Below, one piece after another: positions 4,954 to 50,546 of a stretch of 64,000 nucleotides of DNA. The stretch lies in the NCBI RefSeq assembly GCF_018918325.1, contig NZ_JAHLQH010000053.1, positions 1 through 64,000 on the forward strand, given 5' to 3'. This stretch comes from Clostridium sp. MSJ-8. GTDB lineage: Bacteria > Bacillota > Clostridia > Clostridiales > Clostridiaceae. A program made the translations under genes and the position numbers. Numbering within the stretch: the stretch's first letter is position 1; the number at the start of each line of letters is the position of its first letter. The notes beneath the pieces are model-generated. The model was not told the origin of the DNA, made no database searches, and saw only the letters and a program-made list of their open reading frames with translations.

Positions 4954-6855
4954 TTAATTTTTGTTCTTGTAATTAGAATGTGATTTATTCTTAGATAATT
5001 TTTTATTATATGAATTATTAGAGTTATTATGCTTATTGTGTTTATTATTTCTAGGCGGATAAGGCGGAATTAAGCATTCCTTAGAAGTTCCAATTAGGTC
5101 TTGTCTTCCAGCCTTTAGTAATGCCTTTTTTACAATTTCATAATTTTTTGGTACAGCAAATTGAATAAGTGCACGTTGCATATTTTTTTCTTCTTGAGTT
5201 TTAGGTGTATATATCTTCTCTCCTGTTAATGGGTTGAAACCAGTATAATATATAGTAGTAGATAAGCTACCTGGTGTAGGATAGAAATCTTGCACTTGTT
5301 CAGGTGTATATCCCATCTTTTTTACATATTGAGCTAATTCTATAGCAGCATTTAAATCTGATCCAGGATGAGATGACATAAGGTAAGGTACTAAGTATTG
5401 ATTCATCCCAAGTTTTTTGTTTATTGCAAAATATTTATTTACAAACTTATCATAAACTTCACGAGTTGGTTTTCCCATTTGTGCTAGTACTTTAGGAGAT
5501 ACATGTTCTGGAGCTACTTTTAATTGTCCACTTATATGGTGTTTACATAAATCATAGAAAAATGATTCATTTTTATCATGTATCAAATAATCATACCTTA
5601 TTCCTGAACGAATAAATACCTTTTTTATACCTTTAATATTTCTAACTCTCTTAAGAACATTATTATATTCAGTATGATCAATAATAAGATTTTTACAAGG
5701 TTTAGGGAACATGCATTGTTTATTTTTACATGTACCAAACTCAATTTGTTTCTTACATGCTCTATGCCTGAAATTAGCAGTAGGCCCTCCTATATCATGG
5801 ATATATCCCTTGAAGTCAGGAAAAGTTGTAAGTAGTTTTGCTTCATCAACAATCGAATCTGCGTTCCTAGTTTGAATAGTTCTTCCTTGATGAAATGTAA
5901 GAGCACAGAAAGAACATGATCCATAACATCCTCTATGACTAGTAATAGAAAATCTTACTTCTTTTATTGCAGGAATACCACCATCAGCTTCATATATAGG
6001 ATGATATGTTCTCATAAAAGGTAAATTGTATGTAAAATCCATCTCTTCATTGCTTAATGGTAATTGTTGAGGATTTTGCACTAAATATCTATCGCCATGT
6101 TTTTGAATTATGCCTTTACCTACTATAGGATCTTGTTCGTAATATTCATTCTTATAAGCTTCTCCATAAGCTTTAGTATCACTAGCAACTTCTTCATATG
6201 AAGGGACTTCTATATAATCAGTTAAATTACTTATATCTTTAGTAATGTAACAAGTTCCACGTAGAGTAGTCATCTTATCTATAGATGAACCATATCTAAA
6301 TAATTCTGCAAGTTGAATTATAGTTTTTTCTCCCATTCCGTACATAAGTAAGTCTGCTTTTGAATCAAATAAAATACTACGTCTAACTTTATTAGACCAA
6401 TAATCATAGTGAGCAAATCTTCTTAAACTAGCTTCTATACCACCTATGGCTATAGGGATATCCTTATAAGCTTCTCTTATTTTGTTACAATATACTATTA
6501 CAGCTCTATCTGGTCTATATCCTGATTTTCCTCCAGGAGAATACAAGTCATCATGACGTCTTTTTTTAGCAGCAGTATAATGATTAACCATGGAATCTAT
6601 ATTTCCTGAGTTAACAAGAAAAGCATATTTAGGAGCACCTAATTTCATGAAATCTTTAGTATTATTCCAATTAGGTTGAGCTATTATTCCAACAGTAAAT
6701 CCTTGTGATTCAAGTGTTCTACCAATAATTGCAGTACCAAACGAAGGGTGATCAACATAAGCATCACCAGTAACAATTATAAAGTCTAGTTGTTTAATAT
6801 TTCTTTTATCTAAATCAGCTTTGCAAATAGGCATAAAATCTTTTGCTAAATTCAT
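4954..6855 (-). CDS. YgiQ family radical SAM protein
   Basis: This 633-aa protein matches the YgiQ/UPF0313 family, long radical SAM proteins of unresolved function. Key features are the early [17 protein letters not shown] segment (about 30-46), a B12-binding-like N-terminal half, and the cluster motif [12 protein letters not shown] with cysteines at 310, 314 and 317. The C-terminus is a low-complexity Asn/Lys/His-rich tail after about residue 600. The ATG at 6853-6855 (read on minus) is preceded by GGAG. It is a single-gene unit, convergent with the glycan cluster and divergent from the MgtE_N-type gene. Confidence 0.9.
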
Positions 6856-6993
6856 CTACATATACTCCATTCATTATAAAATATAATCTATCTTAACATA
6901 GTAATTATAACATTACTATATTAAGAATATATATGTTTTAGTTTAAAGAATAAATTAACAATTTTATTAAGGAATATTGCCAATAAAAAAATG

Positions 6994-7021
6994 TTTACTT
7001 TTTAATATAGTATAATATAAT
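6994..7021 (+). promoter_or_regulatory. Promoter for the leader ORF / MgtE_N-CBS unit
   Basis: A TTTACT hexamer (6994-6999) is followed after 16 bases by TATAAT (7016-7021). This is the best housekeeping-type promoter in the 383-base divergent gap between ygiQ and the MgtE_N gene. It would place the transcript start near 7028, leaving a leader of about 210 nt that contains the small ORF and switch described separately. Confidence 0.5.
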
Positions 7022-7113
7022 GATAGTATAGAAGTGGATGATAAATGTAGGAATTCTACGCTTATTATTCACTTTTAGATGTGTAAAAAAATAATAAAGG
7101 TGGTGCAAAGATA

Positions 7114-7194
7114 ATGGAGGATGGACCTCATAGTAGTACTGATAAAACAAAACTGAATAATCTTCTAAGAGGGATTCTTTTATTATCTTATTAA
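7114..7194 (+). CDS. Small leader ORF (26 aa) upstream of MgtE_N-CBS gene
   Basis: The ATG at 7114 follows AAAGGTGG (7097-7104) and opens 26 codons (MEDGPHSSTDKTKLNNLLRG and six more, ending Ser-Tyr). The last ten codons overlap the 5' arm of a 15-bp hairpin immediately upstream of the SD of the next gene. I do not recognise the peptide. Position and overlap suggest a regulatory leader whose translation sets the fold of the downstream RNA. It could also be a chance ORF, and no homologue is known to me. Confidence 0.45.
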   Translation: MEDGPHSSTDKTKLNNLLRGILLLSY

Positions 7195-7230
7195 TATATA
7201 AATAATCCTTCTTAGAAGCGTAAGGAGGAT
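7162..7230 (+). promoter_or_regulatory. Mutually exclusive hairpins controlling the SD of the MgtE_N-CBS gene
   Basis: Arm 1 (7162-7176, CTTCTAAGAGGGATT) pairs with arm 2 (7204-7218, AATCCTTCTTAGAAG) with one G-U pair. Arm 2 can instead pair with the SD region: ATCCTTCTT (7205-7213) against AAGGAGGAT (7222-7230), 9 bp with one G-U and an 8-nt loop. The two helices share arm 2 and cannot form together. Arm 1 lies inside the leader ORF, so a ribosome there would free arm 2 to mask the SD. There is no T-run after the first hairpin, which argues against simple termination. Confidence 0.55.
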
Positions 7231-7238
7231 GCATAAAA

Positions 7239-8489
7239 ATGAAGAAGCTATCAGTATTCCTATATACAGATATATTAGGCAAGAAAGTATATGATGAATT
7301 TGGTGATGTATTAGGAGATTTAAGAGACATATATGTTACAACAGATGATGGATATCCAAGAGCGATAGGATATAAGGTAAAGAGAGGTAGCTCAATATAT
7401 AATTATGAATTTAGAATAATTAATTTTTTTGATGATAATGGCAAGATTATTATTAAGACAAAAGGCAGCAGAGAGATACTTACGAGAAGATATTCTTATT
7501 TATTATCTGAGAATTTGATGAATAAGAAGATAGTAGATATTAATGGTAAACAGGTTGTCAAGGTAAAAGACTTAAAAGTTGTAGAAATTGCAGGAGAATA
7601 CAAGGTCGTTGCAGTAGAAGCTGGTAATCTTGGAAGGTTTAAATCACGTAGGTTATCTCAAATTAGTAAGATGTTATATAAGGCATTAGGTAAGGAATAT
7701 GAAGACAAGATAATACCGTGGGAAGACGTAGAATCATTAGATCTTAAAAATAATAATCTTCAATTATCTAATTCATATAAAAAGATTTCATCATTGCATC
7801 CAGCTGATATTGCGGATATATTAGAGGATCTAGATGAGGGTGAAAGAAAGAAAGTATTTGAATCATTAGATGAAGATTTAGCAGCAGATACATTTGAAGA
7901 AATCGATGATGAATATAAGAGTAGTATTATAAAGGAACTATCAGAAAGCAAAACAGCAGAATTATTAGAGAATATGGATAATGATGAAATTGCAGACCTT
8001 TTAGATGGATTAGAAGAAGAAGAAAAAGAAAAAATTCTTGTTAACCTAGAAAAAGATGATGCAGAAGAAGTTCAAGAATTAATGAAATATGAAGATGAAA
8101 CTGTTGGTAGTATTATGTCTAAGGAATTTGTATCTTTTAATGTAGATGTTTCAATAGAAGATACAATAGATATAATAAAAGAAATGGATGTAGATGAAGA
8201 AGCATTATATTGCATATTTGTAGTAGATGAAGTAGAGAAAGTAAAAGGAACAGTTAAAATACAAGATTTATTACTTAAAGATAAAAAATTATTATTAAAG
8301 GATGTAATGGATGATAAAGTAATAGCAGTTAACCATTCAGAAGCTATAGCAGAAGCTATAGAACAGATAGCTAAGTATGATTTGTTATTAACACCAGTTG
8401 TTGATGATGAAGAAAAGTTAGTAGGAGTGGTACTTATTCATGATATTATAGATGAATATTTATATCCTTTATGGAAGAAAAAGAATTAA
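7239..8489 (+). CDS. PRC-barrel / MgtE N-domain / CBS-domain soluble protein
   Basis: The 416-aa protein has PRC-barrel-like repeats in about residues 1-165 (TDILGKKVYDEFGDVLGDLR and a second copy near 90). An MgtE intracellular N-domain follows at about 180-285, with its Asp/Glu-rich helical repeats (LHPADIADILEDLDEGERKK, then LLENMDNDEIADLLDGLEEE). CBS domains span about 290-410, starting SIMSKEFVSFNVD. The membrane channel domain of MgtE is absent and no hydrophobic helix is seen. In MgtE these cytosolic parts sense Mg2+ and gate the channel, so a free-standing copy may sense divalent metal for a partner protein; that role is inferred. A TAAGGAGG site sits 10 bases before the ATG and is embedded in the leader switch. 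Confidence 0.85.
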   Translation: MKKLSVFLYTDILGKKVYDEFGDVLGDLRDIYVTTDDGYPRAIGYKVKRGSSIYNYEFRIINFFDDNGKIIIKTKGSREILTRRYSYLLSENLMNKKIVDINGKQVVKVKDLKVVEIAGEYKVVAVEAGNLGRFKSRRLSQISKMLYKALGKEYEDKIIPWEDVESLDLKNNNLQLSNSYKKISSLHPADIADILEDLDEGERKKVFESLDEDLAADTFEEIDDEYKSSIIKELSESKTAELLENMDNDEIADLLDGLEEEEKEKILVNLEKDDAEEVQELMKYEDETVGSIMSKEFVSFNVDVSIEDTIDIIKEMDVDEEALYCIFVVDEVEKVKGTVKIQDLLLKDKKLLLKDVMDDKVIAVNHSEAIAEAIEQIAKYDLLLTPVVDDEEKLVGVVLIHDIIDEYLYPLWKKKN

Positions 8490-8517
8490 AAATACATTTA
8501 TTTGATAAAATAACATG

Positions 8518-8545
8518 TTGACAAAATATACTAAGGGAATATAAT
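8518..8545 (+). promoter_or_regulatory. Promoter of the T-box/cysK/cysE unit
   Basis: Consensus TTGACA (8518-8523) and TATAAT (8540-8545) are separated by 16 bases just upstream of the T-box leader. Transcription should start near 8552. Confidence 0.85.
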
Positions 8546-8551
8546 AATAGT

Positions 8552-8850
8552 ATAAACCTTAGTAAAACAGTAGGAATTAAAACGGTGAAGAAGGAAAGTA
8601 ATATTAAGGAAGATTTCAGAGAGAAGAGGATGCTGAGAACTCTTTATCGGAACTAATATGAAGTGCCCTTTGGAGTTAGAACCTGAAATTATAATTTTAT
8701 TTATAATAGTAGGGGTATCGGGTTCACCCGTTATAGTGATATATGACATATGTGTGTCTGATAGAAGAGTGGGATTTATTATTAAATCCAATTAGAGTGG
8801 AATCACGGATATTAACTTCGTCTCTATTATATAGAGATGGAGTTTTTTTA
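8552..8850 (+). ncRNA. Cysteine T-box riboswitch with terminator
   Basis: This roughly 300-nt leader precedes cysK. The T-box core AGAGTGGAATCACGG (8794-8808) matches the family consensus that pairs with the uncharged tRNA acceptor end. Stem I material lies at about 8600-8670, with GAGGATGCTGAGAAC (TGC at 8630-8632) as the likely specifier loop, a Cys codon. The terminator is a 14-bp stem (8814-8827 with 8831-8844, three wobble or bulge-free G-U pairs) ending in seven T residues. Uncharged tRNA-Cys should stabilise the antiterminator and turn on cysteine synthesis. The specifier agrees with the function of the two genes downstream. Confidence 0.92.
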
Positions 8851-8966
8851 TCTTATAGGAAAATATAATAAATTTAATATCTAAAAAGGTGCGAGTTTTT
8901 ATCTGTATTAATTTATATAAGTACAAGGTTTATAAATATAAATGTAATTATTAGGAGGATGTAAAT

Positions 8967-9875
8967 ATGATATACAACAATGTTATAGAAATGATAGGAA
9001 ATACACCATTATTAAAGCTTAATAGATTAGTAGATGAAAATAGTGCTGATGTATATATGAAATTAGAAAAAGGAAATCCAGGGGGAAGTATAAAGGATAG
9101 AGCTGCTTTAGGAATGATAGAAAGAGCTGAAAAAGAAGGTAAGTTAAGAAAAGGAATGACTATAATAGAACCAACTAGTGGAAATACTGGTATAGGACTT
9201 GCTATGATTGGTAAATATAAAGGTTACAAGGTAAGGATTGTTATGCCAGAAACTATGAGTAAAGAAAGAAGAGATTTGATAAAGGCATATGGTGCAGAAC
9301 TTATATTAACAGAAGGATCAAAAGGAATGAAAGGTGCTATAGAGAAGGCAAATGAATATGCTAATTCAGACGAATATTTCATACCACAACAATTTGAAAA
9401 TTTAGCAAATTCACAAAAACATTATGAAACTACAGCAGAAGAAATTTTAAAAGATGTACCAGATGTAGATTATTTTATAGCTGGAGTTGGAAGTGGCGGA
9501 ACTCTATCAGGAGTTGGTAAAAAATTAAAGGAAAATAAAGAAGATGTAAAGGTAGTTGCAGTAGAACCAGCTTCTTCACCAGTTTTAAGTGGTGGTAATC
9601 CAGGAGCTCATAAGATACAAGGAATTGGAGCTGGATTTGTACCAGGAAACTATAATAAAGACGTTGTTGATGAAATTTTCGAGGTATCAGATGATGATGC
9701 AATTGAGTATGCTAGAAAAATAGCTCAAGAAGAGGGCGTTCTAGTAGGAATATCTTCAGGCGCAGCTGTATATGCAGCAATTCAAATTGCAAAGAAATTA
9801 GGTAAGGGCAAGAAGGTAGTAGCTGTAGCTCCAGATGGTGGAGAAAAATATATATCAATGGGAATTTATGACTAA
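8967..9875 (+). CDS. cysK: Cysteine synthase (O-acetylserine thiol-lyase)
   Basis: The 302-aa PLP enzyme forms L-cysteine from O-acetylserine and sulfide. The PLP lysine is K43 in [14 protein letters not shown], the phosphate/substrate loop is TSGNTG at 70-75, and a glycine-rich [13 protein letters not shown] binds the cofactor phosphate near 172-184. AGGAGG lies 7 bases before the ATG. It heads a two-gene operon with cysE, whose product supplies O-acetylserine and usually forms the cysteine synthase complex with CysK. Expression should be controlled by the upstream Cys T-box. Confidence 0.95.
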
Positions 9876-42650: not shown

Positions 42651-42679
42651 TTGACATATGTAGTCTATTGGATTAAAAT
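42651..42679 (+). promoter_or_regulatory. Promoter of the RiPP precursor genes
   Basis: Consensus TTGACA (42651-42656) and TAAAAT (42674-42679) are separated by an ideal 17 bases, placing the transcript start about 55-60 bases before the first precursor ATG. Confidence 0.8.
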
Positions 42680-42742
42680 GAGGTTAGTGAGAATAATGGA
42701 TAAAATTGTATTAATGCGTATTATCGAAAGGGGGTGAGAATA

Positions 42743-42889
42743 ATGGAAAAAGATGAAAAGATAATAGATGAGTTATTTGAGGAATTAACAGAAGAAACTC
42801 AATTAGCTTCAGATGCATCATGTGGAGGCGGAATATGTTCTGCATGTCATTGCAATTTTACAACTCCTTGGAGCAGCTATGGATGGTAA
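42743..42889 (+). CDS. RiPP precursor peptide, copy 1 (48 aa)
   Basis: GGGGGTGA lies 5-6 bases before the ATG. The 48-aa peptide has an acidic leader (MEKDEKIIDELFEELTEETQ, then LASDAS) and a Cys/Gly-rich core from residue 27. Its cysteines are at 27, 32, 35 and 37 (pattern C-x4-C-x2-C-x-C), followed by NFTTPWSSYGW. The peptide is followed by a second identical copy, four radical SAM enzymes and a C39-type exporter, so it is very likely the substrate. Thioether (sactipeptide/ranthipeptide) bonds from the four cysteines are the leading possibility. No obvious immunity protein is encoded nearby. Confidence 0.85.
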   Translation: MEKDEKIIDELFEELTEETQLASDASCGGGICSACHCNFTTPWSSYGW

Positions 42890-42929
42890 AGGGTACATAG
42901 ATGAAAGGATTGAAAAGAGGTGAAAATAT

Positions 42930-43076
42930 ATGGAAAAGGACGAAAAAATAATAGACGAGCTATTTGAGGAATTAACAGAAGAAACTCAATTAGCTTCAGA
43001 TGCATCATGTGGAGGCGGAATATGTTCTGCATGTCATTGCAATTTTACAACTCCTTGGAGTAGTTATGGTTGGTAA
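42930..43076 (+). CDS. RiPP precursor peptide, copy 2 (48 aa, identical product)
   Basis: AAGAGGTGA lies about 6 bases before the ATG at 42930. The product is identical in all 48 residues to copy 1, although the genes differ at eight positions, all synonymous (codons 3, 4, 6, 9, 11, 44, 45 and 47). Codons 12-43 are identical at nucleotide level. The duplicated cassette likely raises precursor dosage. It lies 40 bases after copy 1 and just upstream of a hairpin that separates precursors from the enzymes. Confidence 0.85.
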   Translation: MEKDEKIIDELFEELTEETQLASDASCGGGICSACHCNFTTPWSSYGW

Positions 43077-43101
43077 TAAGTAATACCAAATAAATAAAAT
43101 G

Positions 43102-43146
43102 GGTTATTATAAAATTTTATTGAAAATAAGTTTTATAATAACCTTT
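43102..43146 (+). terminator. Attenuating hairpin between precursors and maturation genes
   Basis: GGTTATTATAAAA (43102-43114) pairs perfectly with TTTTATAATAACC (43131-43143) around a 16-nt loop. Only a short T-rich stretch follows, so partial termination is likely. This would give more precursor than enzyme mRNA, a common RiPP arrangement. Confidence 0.7.
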
Positions 43147-43196
43147 AATTTAAGTTAGTAATAGTATTTTTTTAGGAAGTGTTAAAGAGGTATTTT

Positions 43197-44414
43197 ATGA
43201 TTGAAGTATATAACAATTTCATACATTATACAGATAAAAAAAATAATAGATTTGTTATTAAAAAAGAAAATTATAAGGATGTTTTAAATTATATTAGTAA
43301 GGGATTTTATAGTCCTTATATAGAAGAGTTAAAAAAAATAAATGTAAATATACAAGATGAAATTTTTAGAGATAAAAGTAAGTTAATTAAAGCAATGAAA
43401 TTGTCACTTGATTGTATAGAATATTCGTTACCAATACCTAATACTTTTAATATTGAATTAACTACTAAATGTCCCTTAAGATGTCCACAATGTTATTGTT
43501 ATCTTGATTGTGGTAAAAATATAGACTTAGAAATTGCAAAAAAGTATATTATTGAAGCAGGAAAATTGGGAATTAATTATGTTAATTTAAGTGGAGGAGA
43601 AACTTTAGCATATCCCTATTTAAAAGAGATAATTGCTTGTTGTAAGGAAAATGAGGTAAAACCTTCAATTGCTATAAGTGGGTGGAACTTTTCAAAAGAA
43701 TTATTAAGTGAATTGATTGATAATGGAATTGAATATATATTTGTATCACTTAATGGATCTACAGAAGAAATAAATTCTAAGAGCAGAGATGGATATGGAT
43801 ATGCCATTAATGCATTAAAGATATTAAAAAACAGTAATTTTCATGGATATTTTATAAATTGGGTTGCGCATAATGATAATATAAAGGATTTTCATAATAT
43901 GGTTAGACTGGCTAAATATTATAGAGCTAAGGGGATATGTATATTAAGTGCCAAACCTGATTCAAATGACGAAATGAAAACTAAACCTACAATTGATAAT
44001 TTTAAAGCGTTAGGAGATTATATAAAAACGTTTAAAGATGATAGTTTAGAGCTTTCAATAGAAAATTGTTATAGTTCATTAAGGTTTTATGTTTATGGAG
44101 ATAAGATAATTAGAAGTAGCTGCTTAGCTGGAAAGACTAATTTTTCTATATCTGTAAATGGAAGATTTACAGCATGTAGGCATATTGAGCATGAGGAAGA
44201 GTTTGATAGTATAAAAGATTATTGGAAAAATTCAAGTTTCTTATATAAGTTAAGAAGAAGTTTTGCAAATCCAAAAGAACCGTGTTTAAGTTGTGAATAT
44301 AATAAGAAATGCACTCCGTGTGCTGCTGTAAATTATAGAATATACAAGAAACTATTTAAGGGAAATGAATTTTGCTATGTTAGTAAATTAAAGATGGAGG
44401 CACCAAATGAATAA
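43197..44414 (+). CDS. Radical SAM/SPASM peptide maturase 1
   Basis: The 405-aa protein has the radical SAM motif C92-x3-C96-x2-C99 (TTKCPLRCPQCYC), followed by LSGGETLAYPYL, and a C-terminal SPASM-like cysteine set ending CLSCEYNKKCTPCAAVNY. The first about 80 residues (MIEVYNNFIHYTDKKNNRFV and on) precede the barrel and might be a leader-binding domain. I chose ATG 43197 because AAAGAGG lies 6 bases upstream; the earlier GTG at 43179 has none. Its last bases overlap the next enzyme gene. It differs clearly from the other three maturases, so a different modification or a different residue is likely. Confidence 0.85.
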   Translation: MIEVYNNFIHYTDKKNNRFVIKKENYKDVLNYISKGFYSPYIEELKKINVNIQDEIFRDKSKLIKAMKLSLDCIEYSLPIPNTFNIELTTKCPLRCPQCYCYLDCGKNIDLEIAKKYIIEAGKLGINYVNLSGGETLAYPYLKEIIACCKENEVKPSIAISGWNFSKELLSELIDNGIEYIFVSLNGSTEEINSKSRDGYGYAINALKILKNSNFHGYFINWVAHNDNIKDFHNMVRLAKYYRAKGICILSAKPDSNDEMKTKPTIDNFKALGDYIKTFKDDSLELSIENCYSSLRFYVYGDKIIRSSCLAGKTNFSISVNGRFTACRHIEHEEEFDSIKDYWKNSSFLYKLRRSFANPKEPCLSCEYNKKCTPCAAVNYRIYKKLFKGNEFCYVSKLKMEAPNE

Positions 44415-45483
44415 AATAGTTACATGTAATGAGAATACATCTGGAATTGCGTTACAATTACACATAACTGGAAGATGTAATCAAAAATGCAAACATTGTT
44501 ATCATAATGAATATTTAAATGAACCTATGAAATTAGAAGATATTAGATTAATTATTGAACAATATAAAGAATTAATTTCTAAGTATAATGACAATAAAAA
44601 AATTAAAGAAATAGGACATATAAGTGTAACAGGTGGGGAACCTTTTATTAGAAATGATTTTATGGATATACTAAAAATATTTTGCGACAATAGAGAATAT
44701 TTTAAATTTTCAATTTTGACAAATGGCAGTTTTATTACAGAAGAAGTAGCTAAGAAATTAATATCATATGGAGTTAATGATGTTCAAGTTAGTATTGATG
44801 GTAGTATGAAAACACATGATTTTATTAGAGGAGAAGGAAATTTTAATCAAACATTTAAAGCAATTGATATTTTAGTTAAGTATAAAATTCCTACTATAGT
44901 TTCATTTACAGCTAATAAGTTTAATTATATGGAATTTGAAGAAGTGGCTAGATGTTGTGAAAAACATAGAGTTAATATATTGTGGTCAGATAGATTAGTA
45001 CCTATAGGCAACGGAAAGAAAATGTATGATCAGTGTTTATCACCAACGGAAACATTAGAATATTTTAAAATTATGAAAAAAGTTCAAGATGATTTTAGAA
45101 AAAGAAAATCATTAACATACATCTCTATTGATAGGGCACTTCAGTTTATTGTTACAAAACAAATCCCTCATAGATGCGTAGCAGGGGATTCCTTAATAAC
45201 TATAGATGAATTTGGGAACTTATTGCCATGTAGAAGAATGCCAATAAAATGTGGAAATGTATTAAAAGATAATTTATCTAATTTATATTTCAATAGTGAA
45301 ATAATGAATGAATTAAGAACAAGAAAAGTTTCGAGCGAGTGTTCAAAGTGTAGATTTCAGAAGACATGTAATGGTGGTGCTAAGTGCATTTCTTATGCAA
45401 TAAATAATGATTTTAACAAAGCAGAACCGTTTTGTCCATTAATATATTATAAAAGAAATAATAATATTAGAAATTTACAATAA
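44407..45483 (+). CDS. Radical SAM/SPASM peptide maturase 2
   Basis: The 358-aa protein has C24-x3-C28-x2-C31 (TGRCNQKCKHCYHNEY), SVTGGEPFIRNDF near 75-87, and a SPASM-type C-terminus with LPCRRMPIKCGN and CSKCRFQKTCNGGAKC. It begins inside the end of the preceding gene (8-bp overlap) behind GGAGG, so the two are translationally coupled. It is a close tandem paralogue of maturase 3; the two share most of their motif blocks. The auxiliary clusters suggest C-S or C-C bond formation on the Cys-rich core. Confidence 0.87.
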   Translation: MNKIVTCNENTSGIALQLHITGRCNQKCKHCYHNEYLNEPMKLEDIRLIIEQYKELISKYNDNKKIKEIGHISVTGGEPFIRNDFMDILKIFCDNREYFKFSILTNGSFITEEVAKKLISYGVNDVQVSIDGSMKTHDFIRGEGNFNQTFKAIDILVKYKIPTIVSFTANKFNYMEFEEVARCCEKHRVNILWSDRLVPIGNGKKMYDQCLSPTETLEYFKIMKKVQDDFRKRKSLTYISIDRALQFIVTKQIPHRCVAGDSLITIDEFGNLLPCRRMPIKCGNVLKDNLSNLYFNSEIMNELRTRKVSSECSKCRFQKTCNGGAKCISYAINNDFNKAEPFCPLIYYKRNNNIRNLQ

Positions 45484-45515
45484 GAATAAGCTATATAAAG
45501 TTATGGAGGATAAAT

Positions 45516-46574
45516 ATGAATAAAACTGTAATAACTAGTTTAAAGTCACAGTTATTGATGCAATTACATGTGACAGGACGCTGTAATCAAAAGTGTAAGC
45601 ACTGTTATCATAATGAATATGTTGATGAGCCTTTAACATTGGATAGTATAAGAAATATAATAAATCAATATGTAGAATTGCTAGATAAGTATAATAAAGT
45701 AAAGAATATTAATTGTATGGGGCATATTAATGTAACTGGAGGAGAACCTTTTGTTAGAAAAGATTTTTTCGATATTTTAGAAATGTTTTATGAAAATAGA
45801 AGATACTTTTCTTTTGGAGTATTAACAAATGGAAGTTATATAACAGATGAAAATGCAAAATTGTTAAAAGAGTTAGGTGTTAGTAATGTTCAAGTTAGTA
45901 TTGATGGTGACAAGGAAATTCATGATTATATAAGAGGTCAAGGAAACTATGATCAGACATTTGAAGCTGTAGATAAATTAAGAAAAAACAATATAAGAAC
46001 TACTGTTTCATTTACAGCTAGTAAATTAAATTACAAGAAGTTCCCAGATGTTGCTAAGGCTTGTAAAGAACATGATGTCTCAAGGCTATGGTCAGATAGG
46101 ATTGTACCCATAGGTAATGGAAGTATGCTGAAAGAGCAATGTCTAAGTGCACCAGAGTGTTTAGAATTATTTAAGATTATGAAGGAAGAACAAGACAAAG
46201 CTCTTGCTGAAAATTCTAATACAGAAATATTTATAAAGAGGGCTTTACAATTTATTGTGACTAAAAAAGATATATATGGTTGTAGTGCAGGTGATACAGC
46301 ACTTACAATAGATGAATATGGTAATATTCTTCCATGTAGAAGAATGCCAATAAAATGTGGCAATGTGTTAAAAGAAAATTTAAGCGATGTTTATTTTAAT
46401 AGTGAAATTATGAATGATTTAAGAAAAAAAGAAGTATGCAAAGAATGCGAACAATGTAGATTTAGAAATAATTGTAATGGAGGAGCAAAATGTATTTCTT
46501 ATGCAATTAATAAAGATTATAAAATAGCAGATCCATTTTGTCCTTTAATTTTTTATAGAAGAAATAAAAATTAG
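45516..46574 (+). CDS. Radical SAM/SPASM peptide maturase 3 (paralogue of 2)
   Basis: The 352-aa protein has C23-x3-C27-x2-C30 in TGRCNQKCKHCYHNEY, exactly as in maturase 2, then NVTGGEPFVRKDFF, and the SPASM end CEQCRFRNNCNGGAKC. The match continues through DGDKEIHDYIRGQGNYDQTF, VSFTASKLNY and AGDTALTIDEYGNILPCRRM. The pair therefore arose by tandem duplication. GGAGG precedes the ATG. Since both precursor genes encode the same peptide, the paralogues more likely act on different positions or form a complex than serve different substrates. Confidence 0.87.
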   Translation: MNKTVITSLKSQLLMQLHVTGRCNQKCKHCYHNEYVDEPLTLDSIRNIINQYVELLDKYNKVKNINCMGHINVTGGEPFVRKDFFDILEMFYENRRYFSFGVLTNGSYITDENAKLLKELGVSNVQVSIDGDKEIHDYIRGQGNYDQTFEAVDKLRKNNIRTTVSFTASKLNYKKFPDVAKACKEHDVSRLWSDRIVPIGNGSMLKEQCLSAPECLELFKIMKEEQDKALAENSNTEIFIKRALQFIVTKKDIYGCSAGDTALTIDEYGNILPCRRMPIKCGNVLKENLSDVYFNSEIMNDLRKKEVCKECEQCRFRNNCNGGAKCISYAINKDYKIADPFCPLIFYRRNKN

Positions 46575-46583
46575 GAGGAAAAT

Positions 46584-48350
46584 ATGTTTACTGTTAATGT
46601 TTTGGAGAGAAGAGATAATAAAATTTTATATATTAAAGAAATTAATAATAGTATATTGATCAATAAAGATGAAAAATTAAAAGAAGGAATATATCAATTA
46701 TCAGTTGATGAAATATTAGAAATAATAAAAAGAAATGCTAGTGCTGAATATGATAAATTTAATAAAATAATAATGAATTATATTTCTAAAAGTAATATCA
46801 AAATGGATACACCTCCAAAGGATTATTCAGTATATATTTTATGTATGCATCCATCAAGAAATTGTAATTTGTCATGTAAATATTGTTTCGCAAAAGAAGG
46901 AGAAAAATATTTACCTAAAGAAGGCATAGATATTAAAACTGCCCAGAAAGCTATAGATTTTTTAGTTGATGATTATGGAAGAAAAGGTATAAAGTATCAA
47001 GTAGATATATCAGGTTCAGGAGAACCATTATTGAAATTTGATTTTATAAAGAAATTAGAAGAATATTGTGAAGAGAAAAGTAATGAAACGGGAAAAGAAA
47101 TAAAAATAACATTTCCAACTAATGCTACATTATTAAATGATGAAATGGTTAATTATTTTAATAATGAGTCTAATATTCTAATAGGAATAAGTTTAGATGG
47201 TAATGCAAGACAATCTGCTAATAGACTTCTTCAAGATGGACGTGATGCTTATAGTAGTATAGTAAAAGGTGCAAAATTATTAAATAGACCTTTTGGTATT
47301 GCTGTTACAATAACACACATAAATGAAGATGTTGATGAAGTGTATGATCATTTGTATAATGAATTTCCTAAAGCAGATTCTATAAGCATGCAATTTGTTA
47401 GAAATTATGATCTAGATTCAAACATATCTTTTTATAAGATAGACATAGATAACGTAATATATCATTATGAAAAATTAGTAGATAGATTGTTTATGAAAAT
47501 TAATAATTCTGATTATGAGTATGTATTGAAATTATTAAGAGGTGCAGATACATTTGGAAAATATATTTATAGATGTTTAAATAGGGGAGTTATAAGAAAT
47601 CAGAGATGTGGAGCAGGAAAAGGAACAATATGTGTTGATGATAATGGAGATATATATTCATGTAGTGTAGCAAATGGTGATGAATATTTCAAAATAGGTA
47701 GCATACAAGAAGGAATTGATGAGGAAAAACAATTAAAATTTAAAAAAGCAAATGTTAATGAAAGTGTATCTTGTAGAAAGTGTTGGGGAGCATACATTTG
47801 TGGAGGAGAATGTTTAGTAAAAGCATATTTAAGTAATAAAAATATATATGAACCTAATAAAAAAATATGTGAACTTAAGTTAAGATTAATTGAAATTGCA
47901 GTATACTTTGTTGAAAAACTAAAGCATGATAATATTGAAGCGTATAATTATTTGAGAAAGTTTAAAGTTGATAGCACTAGAGACGACACAAGCTTATGGG
48001 TTATTCATAAGTATTTAAAAAGCAGGAATATATATGTTACTTATAAGGAATTAATGAATAATGCCAAAAGAACATCATATGGATTTAGAGCTAATGACTT
48101 AGTTGACTATGTGAAAAAATATGATGAAAATTTACATGTAATAAAAATTAATAATGTAGATGAATATTCTAATATTACATATCCAGCAATAGCATATGTT
48201 AATAAAAATAAATATTACTATCAGTATTTATTTATAAATGATATGAGAGATGGAAATATAGAATTAATAGATATAAAAAATGATAATGTAATAAAAGTTC
48301 CAATTAAATATTTTTGTGAGGAAATTTCTAACATTATTATGTTTAGTTAG
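46584..48350 (+). CDS. Radical SAM/SPASM maturase 4 with C-terminal C39-like domain
   Basis: This 588-aa protein has three parts. Residues about 1-80 resemble the N-terminal leader-binding region of SCIFF/ranthipeptide-type maturases. The radical SAM domain has C94-x3-C98-x2-C101 (RNCNLSCKYCF), and the SPASM part ends CRKCWGAYICGGEC. Residues about 461-588 align by eye with the C39 peptidase domain of the adjacent exporter, but the catalytic Cys and His positions read Asp and Tyr, and only the Asp is kept (near 563). I infer an inactive C39-like domain, possibly binding the leader. It may relate to clostridial Cys-rich peptide maturases (CcpM type), from memory only. AGGAGG lies 6 bases before the ATG. 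Confidence 0.82.
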   Translation: MFTVNVLERRDNKILYIKEINNSILINKDEKLKEGIYQLSVDEILEIIKRNASAEYDKFNKIIMNYISKSNIKMDTPPKDYSVYILCMHPSRNCNLSCKYCFAKEGEKYLPKEGIDIKTAQKAIDFLVDDYGRKGIKYQVDISGSGEPLLKFDFIKKLEEYCEEKSNETGKEIKITFPTNATLLNDEMVNYFNNESNILIGISLDGNARQSANRLLQDGRDAYSSIVKGAKLLNRPFGIAVTITHINEDVDEVYDHLYNEFPKADSISMQFVRNYDLDSNISFYKIDIDNVIYHYEKLVDRLFMKINNSDYEYVLKLLRGADTFGKYIYRCLNRGVIRNQRCGAGKGTICVDDNGDIYSCSVANGDEYFKIGSIQEGIDEEKQLKFKKANVNESVSCRKCWGAYICGGECLVKAYLSNKNIYEPNKKICELKLRLIEIAVYFVEKLKHDNIEAYNYLRKFKVDSTRDDTSLWVIHKYLKSRNIYVTYKELMNNAKRTSYGFRANDLVDYVKKYDENLHVIKINNVDEYSNITYPAIAYVNKNKYYYQYLFINDMRDGNIELIDIKNDNVIKVPIKYFCEEISNIIMFS

Positions 48351-48392
48351 TTTTTTTACTACAAATACAAATTAATTTAAAGGTGAAGAATA

Positions 48393-50546
48393 ATGAAATT
48401 ATCTAAAAAATATCCATATGTTAAACAAATGGATGATAATGATTGTGGGCCAGCATGTTTAGCAACAGTCTTGAAGTATTATAAGTATAAAATATCTATA
48501 ACAAGACTAAGAGAAATATGCAAAACAGATATTAACGGTACAACTATGTTAGGCTTAATTAAAGCAGCGCAAAAGTTAGGCTTTTCTGCAAAGGGGGTTA
48601 ATGGAAAAGGGATAAAAGCATTAAAAAGTAATTTTCCAAAGCCCGCTATAGCACATGTTATATATGGTGATGGAGTAAGGCATTATGTTGTTTTGTATGA
48701 AGTAACAGATAGTAAAGTTATAGTTGCTGATACTGGCAGAGGTATTATTACTTATAGCATAGAGGAATTCTTAAAAATATGGAGTGGTAAACTAATATTT
48801 TTAATTCCTCCAAGTGAATTTAAAGAGAATGAATATAAAAATCCGTATATAAGATTTGTAAAGCTGATAAGTATGCAGAAGAAATTAATTATATCAATTT
48901 TTTTTGCATCTTTATTTATAGCTATACTGGGTATTTTAGGGAGTTTTTATTATAAGATATTAATAGATAATGTTATACCTAATAATTTATATAATAAGTT
49001 AAAATTTGTTTCTATAACTATGATATGTATTGTATCGCTAAAGACAATTATTGAATTATTACGTAATATACTACTATTATTTATTTCCAAGAATATAGAT
49101 GTTCAATTATTATTAGGATATTATAGCCATATATTAAAATTACCTATGGAATTCTTTGAATCAAGAGATGTAGGAAGCATAATTTCAAGGTTTAATGATG
49201 GTGTAAAAATAAGAGATGCAATAAGTTCAACTGCTGTAACTGTATTTCTTGATACTCTTATGGCTGTTGTAGGAGGAATAATATTATATAGGTTGAGCGG
49301 AATAATGTTCTTTGTTTGTTTTATACCGATAGTAATTTATTTGTTCCTAGTTGTTAAATTCAAATCTAAAATAGAAGAAAGCAATAGAGATGTTATGGAA
49401 AATAATTCAAAAGTAACTTCTTATTTAGTGGAATCCATTGAAGGAGTTGAAGTTATTAAATCCTATAATTCAGAAGAATATAATGTAAGAAAATTTAAAA
49501 AAAGATTTAATTACTATATGGAGTCTTTGTTTAAAAATGGTTTTATTCTAAACATTCTAGAATCCTTAAAGGGAATAACAAAAGTTGTATTTGGAATTTG
49601 TATACTATGGTTAGGAGCATATTTAACTCTTAAAGGTCAGGTAACAGTAGGAACATTTATTAGTTTTAATGCTTTATTGGCATATTTTATTGAGCCTATA
49701 GAAAGAGTAATTAATTTGCAATCTCAGATACAAAGTGCAATGGTAGCTGCTGATAGATTAGGGCAAATATTAGATTTACAAATTGAAAGTTATAAAAATG
49801 ATAGGAAGAGTTTGTCTTTGGCAGGAGATATTATTTTTGAAAATATTACATTTAGATATGGATTTAGAAGAATTATTTTACAAGATTTCAATTTACATAT
49901 AAAGAATAAAGAAAGAATAGCACTAGTTGGGGAAAGTGGTTCTGGAAAAACTACCATAGTAAAAATTCTTATGAAATTTTATGAAATTGAAAAAGGTAAA
50001 ATTACAATAAATTCTAATGATTTAGTGGATATTTCACCAAGACAATTACGAAATCGAATTGCATATATATCTCAAGAATCTTATTTTTTCTCTGGAACAA
50101 TTAGAGAAAATTTATTAATAGGAAATAATGATGCTAGTGAAGAAGATATGGTAAATATATGCAAGAAGGTATTTATTCATGATTATATTATGAGTCTTCC
50201 AAAAAAATATGATAATGTTTTATCAGAAAAAGCTATGAACTTATCAGGGGGACAAAGACAAAGACTAGCTATTGCAAGAGCTTTGTTGAAAAAACCTGAT
50301 ATATTGATTATGGATGAGGCTACATCAAATTTAGATTCTATAACAGAGAAGGCTTTAGAAAAAACTATTAATGAATGTACTAATGGTATAACAACAATAA
50401 TAATAGCACATAGATTAAGTACAATAAAAAATTGTGACAGAATCTTTGTAATTGAAGATGGACAAATTATAGAAGAAGGATCTCATGAAGAGTTATTAAA
50501 TAATAAAGGTGAATATTGCTATATGTGGAATAAGCAATTTTCATAA
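48393..50546 (+). CDS. C39 peptidase-containing ABC exporter (bacteriocin type)
   Basis: The 717-aa protein combines a C39 leader peptidase domain (about 1-140; Cys18 in NDCGPAC, His97 in VRHYVVL, Asp113 in VADTG), a six-helix membrane domain (about 155-440) and an ATPase domain. The ATPase motifs are Walker A VGESGSGKTT near 511, signature LSGGQRQRLAIARAL near 614, Walker B ILIMDEATSNLD near 633 and H-loop IAHRLS near 668. Such proteins cut the leader, often after Gly-Gly or a similar small pair, and export the core. It is the last gene of the cluster and fits export of the modified precursor. Confidence 0.93.
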   Translation: MKLSKKYPYVKQMDDNDCGPACLATVLKYYKYKISITRLREICKTDINGTTMLGLIKAAQKLGFSAKGVNGKGIKALKSNFPKPAIAHVIYGDGVRHYVVLYEVTDSKVIVADTGRGIITYSIEEFLKIWSGKLIFLIPPSEFKENEYKNPYIRFVKLISMQKKLIISIFFASLFIAILGILGSFYYKILIDNVIPNNLYNKLKFVSITMICIVSLKTIIELLRNILLLFISKNIDVQLLLGYYSHILKLPMEFFESRDVGSIISRFNDGVKIRDAISSTAVTVFLDTLMAVVGGIILYRLSGIMFFVCFIPIVIYLFLVVKFKSKIEESNRDVMENNSKVTSYLVESIEGVEVIKSYNSEEYNVRKFKKRFNYYMESLFKNGFILNILESLKGITKVVFGICILWLGAYLTLKGQVTVGTFISFNALLAYFIEPIERVINLQSQIQSAMVAADRLGQILDLQIESYKNDRKSLSLAGDIIFENITFRYGFRRIILQDFNLHIKNKERIALVGESGSGKTTIVKILMKFYEIEKGKITINSNDLVDISPRQLRNRIAYISQESYFFSGTIRENLLIGNNDASEEDMVNICKKVFIHDYIMSLPKKYDNVLSEKAMNLSGGQRQRLAIARALLKKPDILIMDEATSNLDSITEKALEKTINECTNGITTIIIAHRLSTIKNCDRIFVIEDGQIIEEGSHEELLNNKGEYCYMWNKQFS

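Follow-up and report, generated by a model that had tools for sequence, protein, structure and literature searches.

What would four radical SAM (rSAM) enzymes do with a single 48-amino-acid (aa) peptide? The question is raised by a locus of Clostridium sp. MSJ-8, on contig NZ_JAHLQH010000053.1, whose positions 1–64,000 were analysed as a whole (the window). Genes for two copies of one 48-aa precursor, for four rSAM proteins and for a single C39-ABC exporter lie on one strand (+) at 42651–50546, as read from the list of open reading frames (ORFs) and the DNA. The best explanation, to which we give about an even chance, is a cassette for a ribosomally synthesized and post-translationally modified peptide (RiPP) whose precursor would be gripped partly by a C39-like domain of rSAM4 and modified in part by a pair of enzymes related to rSAMs of Cys-Gly/Ser-tailed proteins. 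The features, compared with those of a second cluster (L004), are as follows.

42651–42679, + strand: promoter-like site TTGACA-17-TAAAAT, 11 of 12 consensus positions, by consensus match only.
42743–42889, + strand: precursor copy 1, 48 aa, with a conserved leader-like helix (IIDELFEELTEE) followed by DASCGGGICSACHCNFTTPWSSYGW; an ORF with a relative in L004.
42930–43076, + strand: precursor copy 2, an ORF with a protein identical to copy 1 and 8 synonymous differences.
43101–43144, + strand: hairpin of 17 bp between precursors and enzyme genes, from folding against shuffles; a similar stem in L004.
43197–44414, + strand: rSAM1, 405 aa, with an N-terminal extension of ~80 aa, a radical SAM domain and SPASM-like C-terminal Cys.
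44407–45483, + strand: rSAM2, 358 aa, radical SAM and SPASM, without N-terminal extension; grouped with rSAMs beside Cys-tailed proteins.
45516–46574, + strand: rSAM3, 352 aa, a paralogue of rSAM2 at 62% identity.
46584–48350, + strand: rSAM4, 588 aa, with an N-terminal extension, radical SAM and SPASM nearest SCIFF/PapB maturases, and a C-terminal C39-like domain.
47985–48347, + strand: C39-peptidase-like domain, rSAM4 residues 468–588, without the catalytic Cys and His; from PF03412 in both orthologues, alignment and predicted fold.
48393–50546, + strand: C39-ABC exporter, 717 aa, with DCGPAC, HYVV, VAD and ABC motifs.

All four rSAM proteins pass the Pfam Radical_SAM cut-off of 29.5 bits (54–87 bits), and the exporter, at 658.4 bits against the TIGR01193 cut-off of 523.85, is a C39-ABC exporter whose DCGPAC, HYVV and VAD motifs recur in that of L004. 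Both precursor ORFs begin with ATG, and the start of rSAM1 is most likely the ATG at 43197, in agreement with the L004 protein. A preliminary description of this DNA had named the same gene set, running in one direction, and a core with four Cys in an 11-residue span; ORFs and family scores confirm the former, and Cys 27, 32, 35 and 37 of the precursor the latter. The C39-like domain of rSAM4, the kinship of rSAM2 and rSAM3 and the hairpin after the precursors were absent from it.

The cluster is rare: searches with the precursor and rSAM4 found it in two of 206 genomes of the family, MSJ-8 and G036; contig C69 of the latter has the same ORFs as L004, a contig of a metagenome-assembled genome. 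L004 holds one precursor, rSAM1–rSAM4 and the exporter, ordered as in the window, with identities of 58% (rSAM1), 65% (rSAM2), 68% (rSAM3), 63% (rSAM4), 64% (first 155 aa of the exporter) and 63% (precursor, over aligned columns). That a short precursor gene stands next to those of its candidate maturases and exporter, an association preserved in two genomes, supports a RiPP cluster of the radical SAM type, and the earlier reading of one peptide with four candidate maturases is strengthened because the second genome retains all four rSAM genes. Among 225 genomes of the order, rSAM4 had no match at 1e-70 beyond these two genomes, and among 391 genomes of the class, a sample without G036, none at 1e-55 beyond MSJ-8. 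When 84,980 species genomes were scanned for short exact peptide patterns of rSAM4, a method confined to close relatives, L004 was the one locus returned.

The C-terminus of rSAM4 matches PF03412 at 32.4 bits in the window and 32.0 bits in L004 (gathering cut-off 22), and its predicted fold resembles the C39 domains of ComA, PCAT1 and HlyB (3zua). In the alignment, CGPAC is deleted and the His of the HYVV position is missing in both rSAM4 orthologues, so that neither domain qualifies as an active C39 peptidase. The C39-like domain of HlyB is not a protease and holds the substrate. To judge from sequence and modelled fold, the domain of rSAM4 is probably a leader-holding module: without catalytic Cys and His, a double-glycine-protease fold would have been turned into a leader-binding one. 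The domains of HlyB, ComA and PCAT1 are N-terminal on ABC exporters, whereas that of rSAM4 forms the C-terminus of an rSAM. In the open-licence literature, which lacks most subscription journals, no description of such a fusion between a dead C39 domain and an rSAM was found. A profile of the rSAM4 C-terminus detected nothing beyond its own genome in 274 genomes of the class (E 0.001); it missed C39 exporters too, and with so little sensitivity it does not establish the fusion as unique. Further down the VIA-align rows, below the C39 domains, CdiA-CT toxin, YopQ, deubiquitinases and others were attributed to the wider papain-like fold and set aside.

The best NCBIfam match of rSAM2 and rSAM3 is TIGR04340, 'ACGX system' (147.5 and 149.9 bits), at scores that leave both outside that system (400 bits); rSAM2 reaches 78.6 of 625 bits for StsB (NF045574) and 66.6 of 850 bits for AlbA (NF012164). 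With a profile of the four cluster copies (window and L004), the 391 class genomes gave, at E 1e-60 or better, one match each in seven other genomes and a third copy in the MSJ-8 genome, eight neighbourhoods in all; a weaker MSJ-8 match (C22, E 2.5e-24) was left out. Every one of the eight has exactly one ORF with a Cys-Gly/Ser tail (8 among 102 non-overlapping ORFs), that is, an ORF of at least 100 aa with triplets of Cys-Gly/Ser (for example CGGCGGCGG or CSSCSSCSS) within its final 45 residues, as captured by a search expression composed after the tails were seen and requiring its second alternative for L028. This ORF lies directly upstream of the rSAM gene or overlaps it in 7/8; the exception is L028, where the tail belongs to a protein of 129 aa encoded 1.6 kb upstream. 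No such tail occurs among the 133 ORFs of 17 other loci (window 51, L004 15, L051 11, L052 8, L035–L047 48). Two of the scanned tail proteins score above cut-off for DUF2207 N- or C-terminal models and one for TIGR04222, the others being without family.

The tree places the four rSAM2 and rSAM3 copies of the clusters in one clade (99/97), joined with L026–L028 (98/96), and thereby groups them with rSAMs beside DUF2207/TIGR04222-like proteins with Cys-Gly/Ser tails (L026–L033). Those systems have repeat tails; the target here would instead be a small peptide that is exported and has a single Cys-Gly-Gly, for which rSAM2 and rSAM3 were probably recruited. The same literature yielded no description of two maturases with this kinship, of an rSAM beside DUF2207 or of the chemistry of rSAMs beside Cys-Gly/Ser-tailed proteins. 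PMC12452194 proposes that MNIO enzymes act on TIGR04222 proteins of other phyla; the neighbour here is instead an rSAM. Contig C7 of the MSJ-8 genome (L033:6453-9010) encodes, at 6453-8027, a 524-aa DUF2207 protein with a Cys-Ser-Ser tail ending CSSCSSCSSCSSCSSCGGGGAD, its gene abutting an rSAM2/3-related radical SAM gene at 8027-9010. At L028:3464-8213, the 129-aa protein (CGSSCSGCS segment, Asn run) is flanked by a 582-aa rSAM protein, a channel-like protein and a protein of the rSAM2/3 type. One TGA reported in the MSJ-8 relative L022 raised the possibility of selenocysteine, which was rejected because the 327-aa frame is open.

Among NCBIfam maturases, rSAM4 is nearest SCIFF (TIGR03974, 187.3 of 425 bits) and PapB (NF047865, 184.7 of 340 bits), and rSAM1 is nearest the PqqE (76 of 381 bits) and mycofactocin (67 of 265 bits) maturases. 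SCIFF/PapB ranthipeptide clusters likewise combine a small Cys-rich precursor with an rSAM/SPASM maturase, but here the scores lie below both cut-offs, three further rSAMs are present and rSAM4 carries the C39-like domain. The class first suggested, sactipeptide/ranthipeptide-type, fits only loosely, through rSAM4: no rSAM reaches the SCIFF, PapB, StsB or AlbA cut-offs, and rSAM2 and rSAM3 belong with the Cys-tail-associated rSAMs. Several distinct modifications of one core, also suggested at first, are plausible because the four rSAMs fall into three unlike groups, but a count of four may overstate the activities because rSAM2 and rSAM3, being paralogues, could act as a pair.

Could this be an ordinary multi-enzyme sactipeptide or ranthipeptide cluster, in which all rSAMs make Cys thioether crosslinks and some are partners without distinct chemistry? 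We hold this possible, with a chance well below even. The nearness of rSAM4 to SCIFF and PapB speaks for it, as do two known cases. In thuricin CD, PMC12093266 describes a tight complex of two rSAMs, TrnC and TrnD, with only one activity strictly essential; two rSAMs likewise act on the same Cys-rich peptides, but the precursors are two different ones, and the contact between TrnC and TrnD is attributed to N-terminal extensions, which rSAM2 and rSAM3 lack. In network cluster 115, described in PMC9062424, 3–5 rSAMs accompany a Cys-rich precursor in which three or more Cys are conserved, and several thioethers are predicted; those clusters have a peptidase, a hydrolase and an Asp-Cys motif, whereas here, compared by description only, there is neither Asp-Cys nor a hydrolase gene. 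Many rSAMs per peptide are thus unusual, not new. Against a purely thioether-forming cluster stand the three unlike groups of rSAM1, rSAM2/rSAM3 and rSAM4, and the fact that only three Cys are common to both cores.

In the mechanism that we prefer, all four rSAMs would act on the precursor, whose N-terminal helix would be held by the maturases, with rSAM4 gripping it partly through its C39-like domain. rSAM1 and rSAM4 have a ~80-residue N-terminal extension ahead of the first cluster motif, absent from rSAM2 and rSAM3; such extensions are often leader-binding RiPP recognition element (RRE) domains. Without an extension of their own, rSAM2 and rSAM3 would act paired, applying to the conserved Cys-Gly-Gly segment the chemistry that their relatives use on the Cys-Gly/Ser-rich tails of other proteins. 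The SPASM core of rSAM4 would most likely use the CxxC cysteines for thioether crosslinks, a third change would come from rSAM1, and the C39-ABC protein would cut and export the modified peptide, which may have an antibacterial or signalling use. The fuller proposal, that a dead C39 domain as substrate grip and an rSAM pair taken from a Cys-Gly/Ser-tail system together give at least three kinds of radical modification, one of them a hitherto undescribed change of Cys-Gly-Gly units, is tentative and on balance doubtful. If true, rSAM maturases would have a second way to hold their precursor, taken over from the protease of the exporter itself, and the peptide, with one or two Cys-Gly-Gly/CxxC units, would be a small soluble substrate for probing the Cys-Gly/Ser-tail-associated rSAMs of Clostridia.

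Several findings weigh against this mechanism. For the C-terminal domain of rSAM4, the best Foldseek E is 1.7e-3 (none <1e-3), the hhalign probability against the exporter's C39 domain is 5.6%, from thin two-sequence profiles, and the best PDB phmmer E is 0.06; the full-length rSAM4 model, made from two sequences, is poor (pLDDT 47) and was left out of the fold search. The support for the C39-like assignment is accordingly graded moderate. In the list of the 25 best NCBIfam families for each rSAM, no curated maturase cut-off is attained, and since chemistry is not readable from sequence the thioethers stay predicted. Two clusters are known, so conservation amounts to a single comparison. Duplication of rSAM2/rSAM3 before the split of the two clusters is weakly supported (window rSAM2 with L004 rSAM2, 80/82), and L004 rSAM2 and rSAM3 are nearer each other (70.7%) than to their orthologues. 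The leader adds a further difficulty: PMC10885120 gives the double-glycine rule as GG, GA or GS with hydrophobic residues at -4, -7 and -12, and the precursor departs from it. Cleavage after its GG leaves 0 or 1 of positions -4/-7/-12/-15 hydrophobic, and the hydrophobic register precedes Glu-Glu instead (3/4 in the window helix, 4/4 in L004), which makes both the site and the occurrence of the exporter's cut ambiguous.

The missing GG register, together with a leader contact at rSAM4 that is predicted only, would also suit a C39-like domain that is no leader binder and either docks rSAM4 to the exporter, aids pairing with another rSAM or is a fusion remnant. We consider this rather unlikely, as the domain is retained in both orthologues with DTSLW, YPAIAY and KYYY in common, at 41% identity compared with 63% for the whole protein.

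The precursor had been said to match no known RiPP core exactly, and its search in NCBIfam and Pfam indeed gave no match at cut-off. Both precursors carry LFEEL-EE-QLA-DASC, then GGIC--C and a Trp at the end; the core has four Cys in the window and three in L004 (CGGICKMC), three being common to both, and the spacing is CX4CX2C in the window versus CX3CX2C in L004. These Cys might instead hold an iron-sulfur cluster or copper, with the rSAMs adjusting a metal-binding peptide. Through its CX4CX2C spacing, the window precursor (42743–42886) scores 20.1 bits for Fer2 (2Fe-2S ferredoxin), just under the Pfam cut-off of 21. We judge metal binding improbable: the Cys spacing is unlike between the two precursors, the L004 precursor has no Pfam match, and C39-ABC export with four rSAMs is, to our knowledge, atypical of metal storage. 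In its favour, Cys-rich tails of the TIGR04222 type, represented once among the tail proteins here, are proposed MNIO substrates, and the bufferin products of MNIO enzymes bind copper (PMC12452194).

The two precursor copies (42743–43076) differ at 8 of 147 bases, all eight synonymous, with a chance of 2e-6 to 5e-5 under random changes, depending on transition bias. The differences are confined to the ends, leaving 100 identical mid-gene bases that could stem from recent copying. Gene conversion is perhaps indicated by this pattern.

The single strong promoter first claimed is represented by the 11/12 site upstream of copy 1, but 'strong' rests on one well-placed match: the scan gave 69 sites against 71.3 in shuffles (sd 8.4), no excess, with one other 11/12 site inside rSAM3. 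The hairpin of the window is not exceptional for its composition (z -1.5, 14/200 shuffles folding equally well); the L004 stem at the matching place has z -3.7, with 0/200 shuffles equal, and TATAATAACCTT ends the stem in both. It is a possible partial terminator or processing stem, which may hold enzyme expression under that of the precursor.

The two cassettes lie in different places. L004 is flanked by a chemoreceptor gene and an ilvC-like gene, names that we presume from reading the proteins, and the window cassette by what we take to be spoIVFB-like/77-aa genes and a TIGR03960-like gene. In 13 relatives' loci at the TIGR03960-like gene, spoIVFB is within 1.5 kb upstream in eight and was not seen in five, and none has the exporter or rSAM1. 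The spoIVFB-77aa-TIGR03960 junction of G036 carries no cassette, its last two genes being 156 bp apart; with the different place of L004, this indicates either that each genome gained the cassette at a site of its own or that it moved as one unit.

Two genomes have a distant homologue of rSAM1 (L049, L050; E 1e-60) next to a conserved protein of 382 aa; these homologues stand in different surroundings, where no precursor is visible, and are thus uninformative on the role of rSAM1. At L051:6286-8676 and L052:4293-6662, in two genomes, this 382-aa protein comes after the rSAM1 homologue. A match to rSAM4 occurs in 454 plasmid records, none covering 80% of it. The search of viral contigs gave no relative of rSAM1, rSAM4 or the precursor, and five viral loci (L008–L012) encode stretches 21–28% identical to rSAM2/rSAM3.
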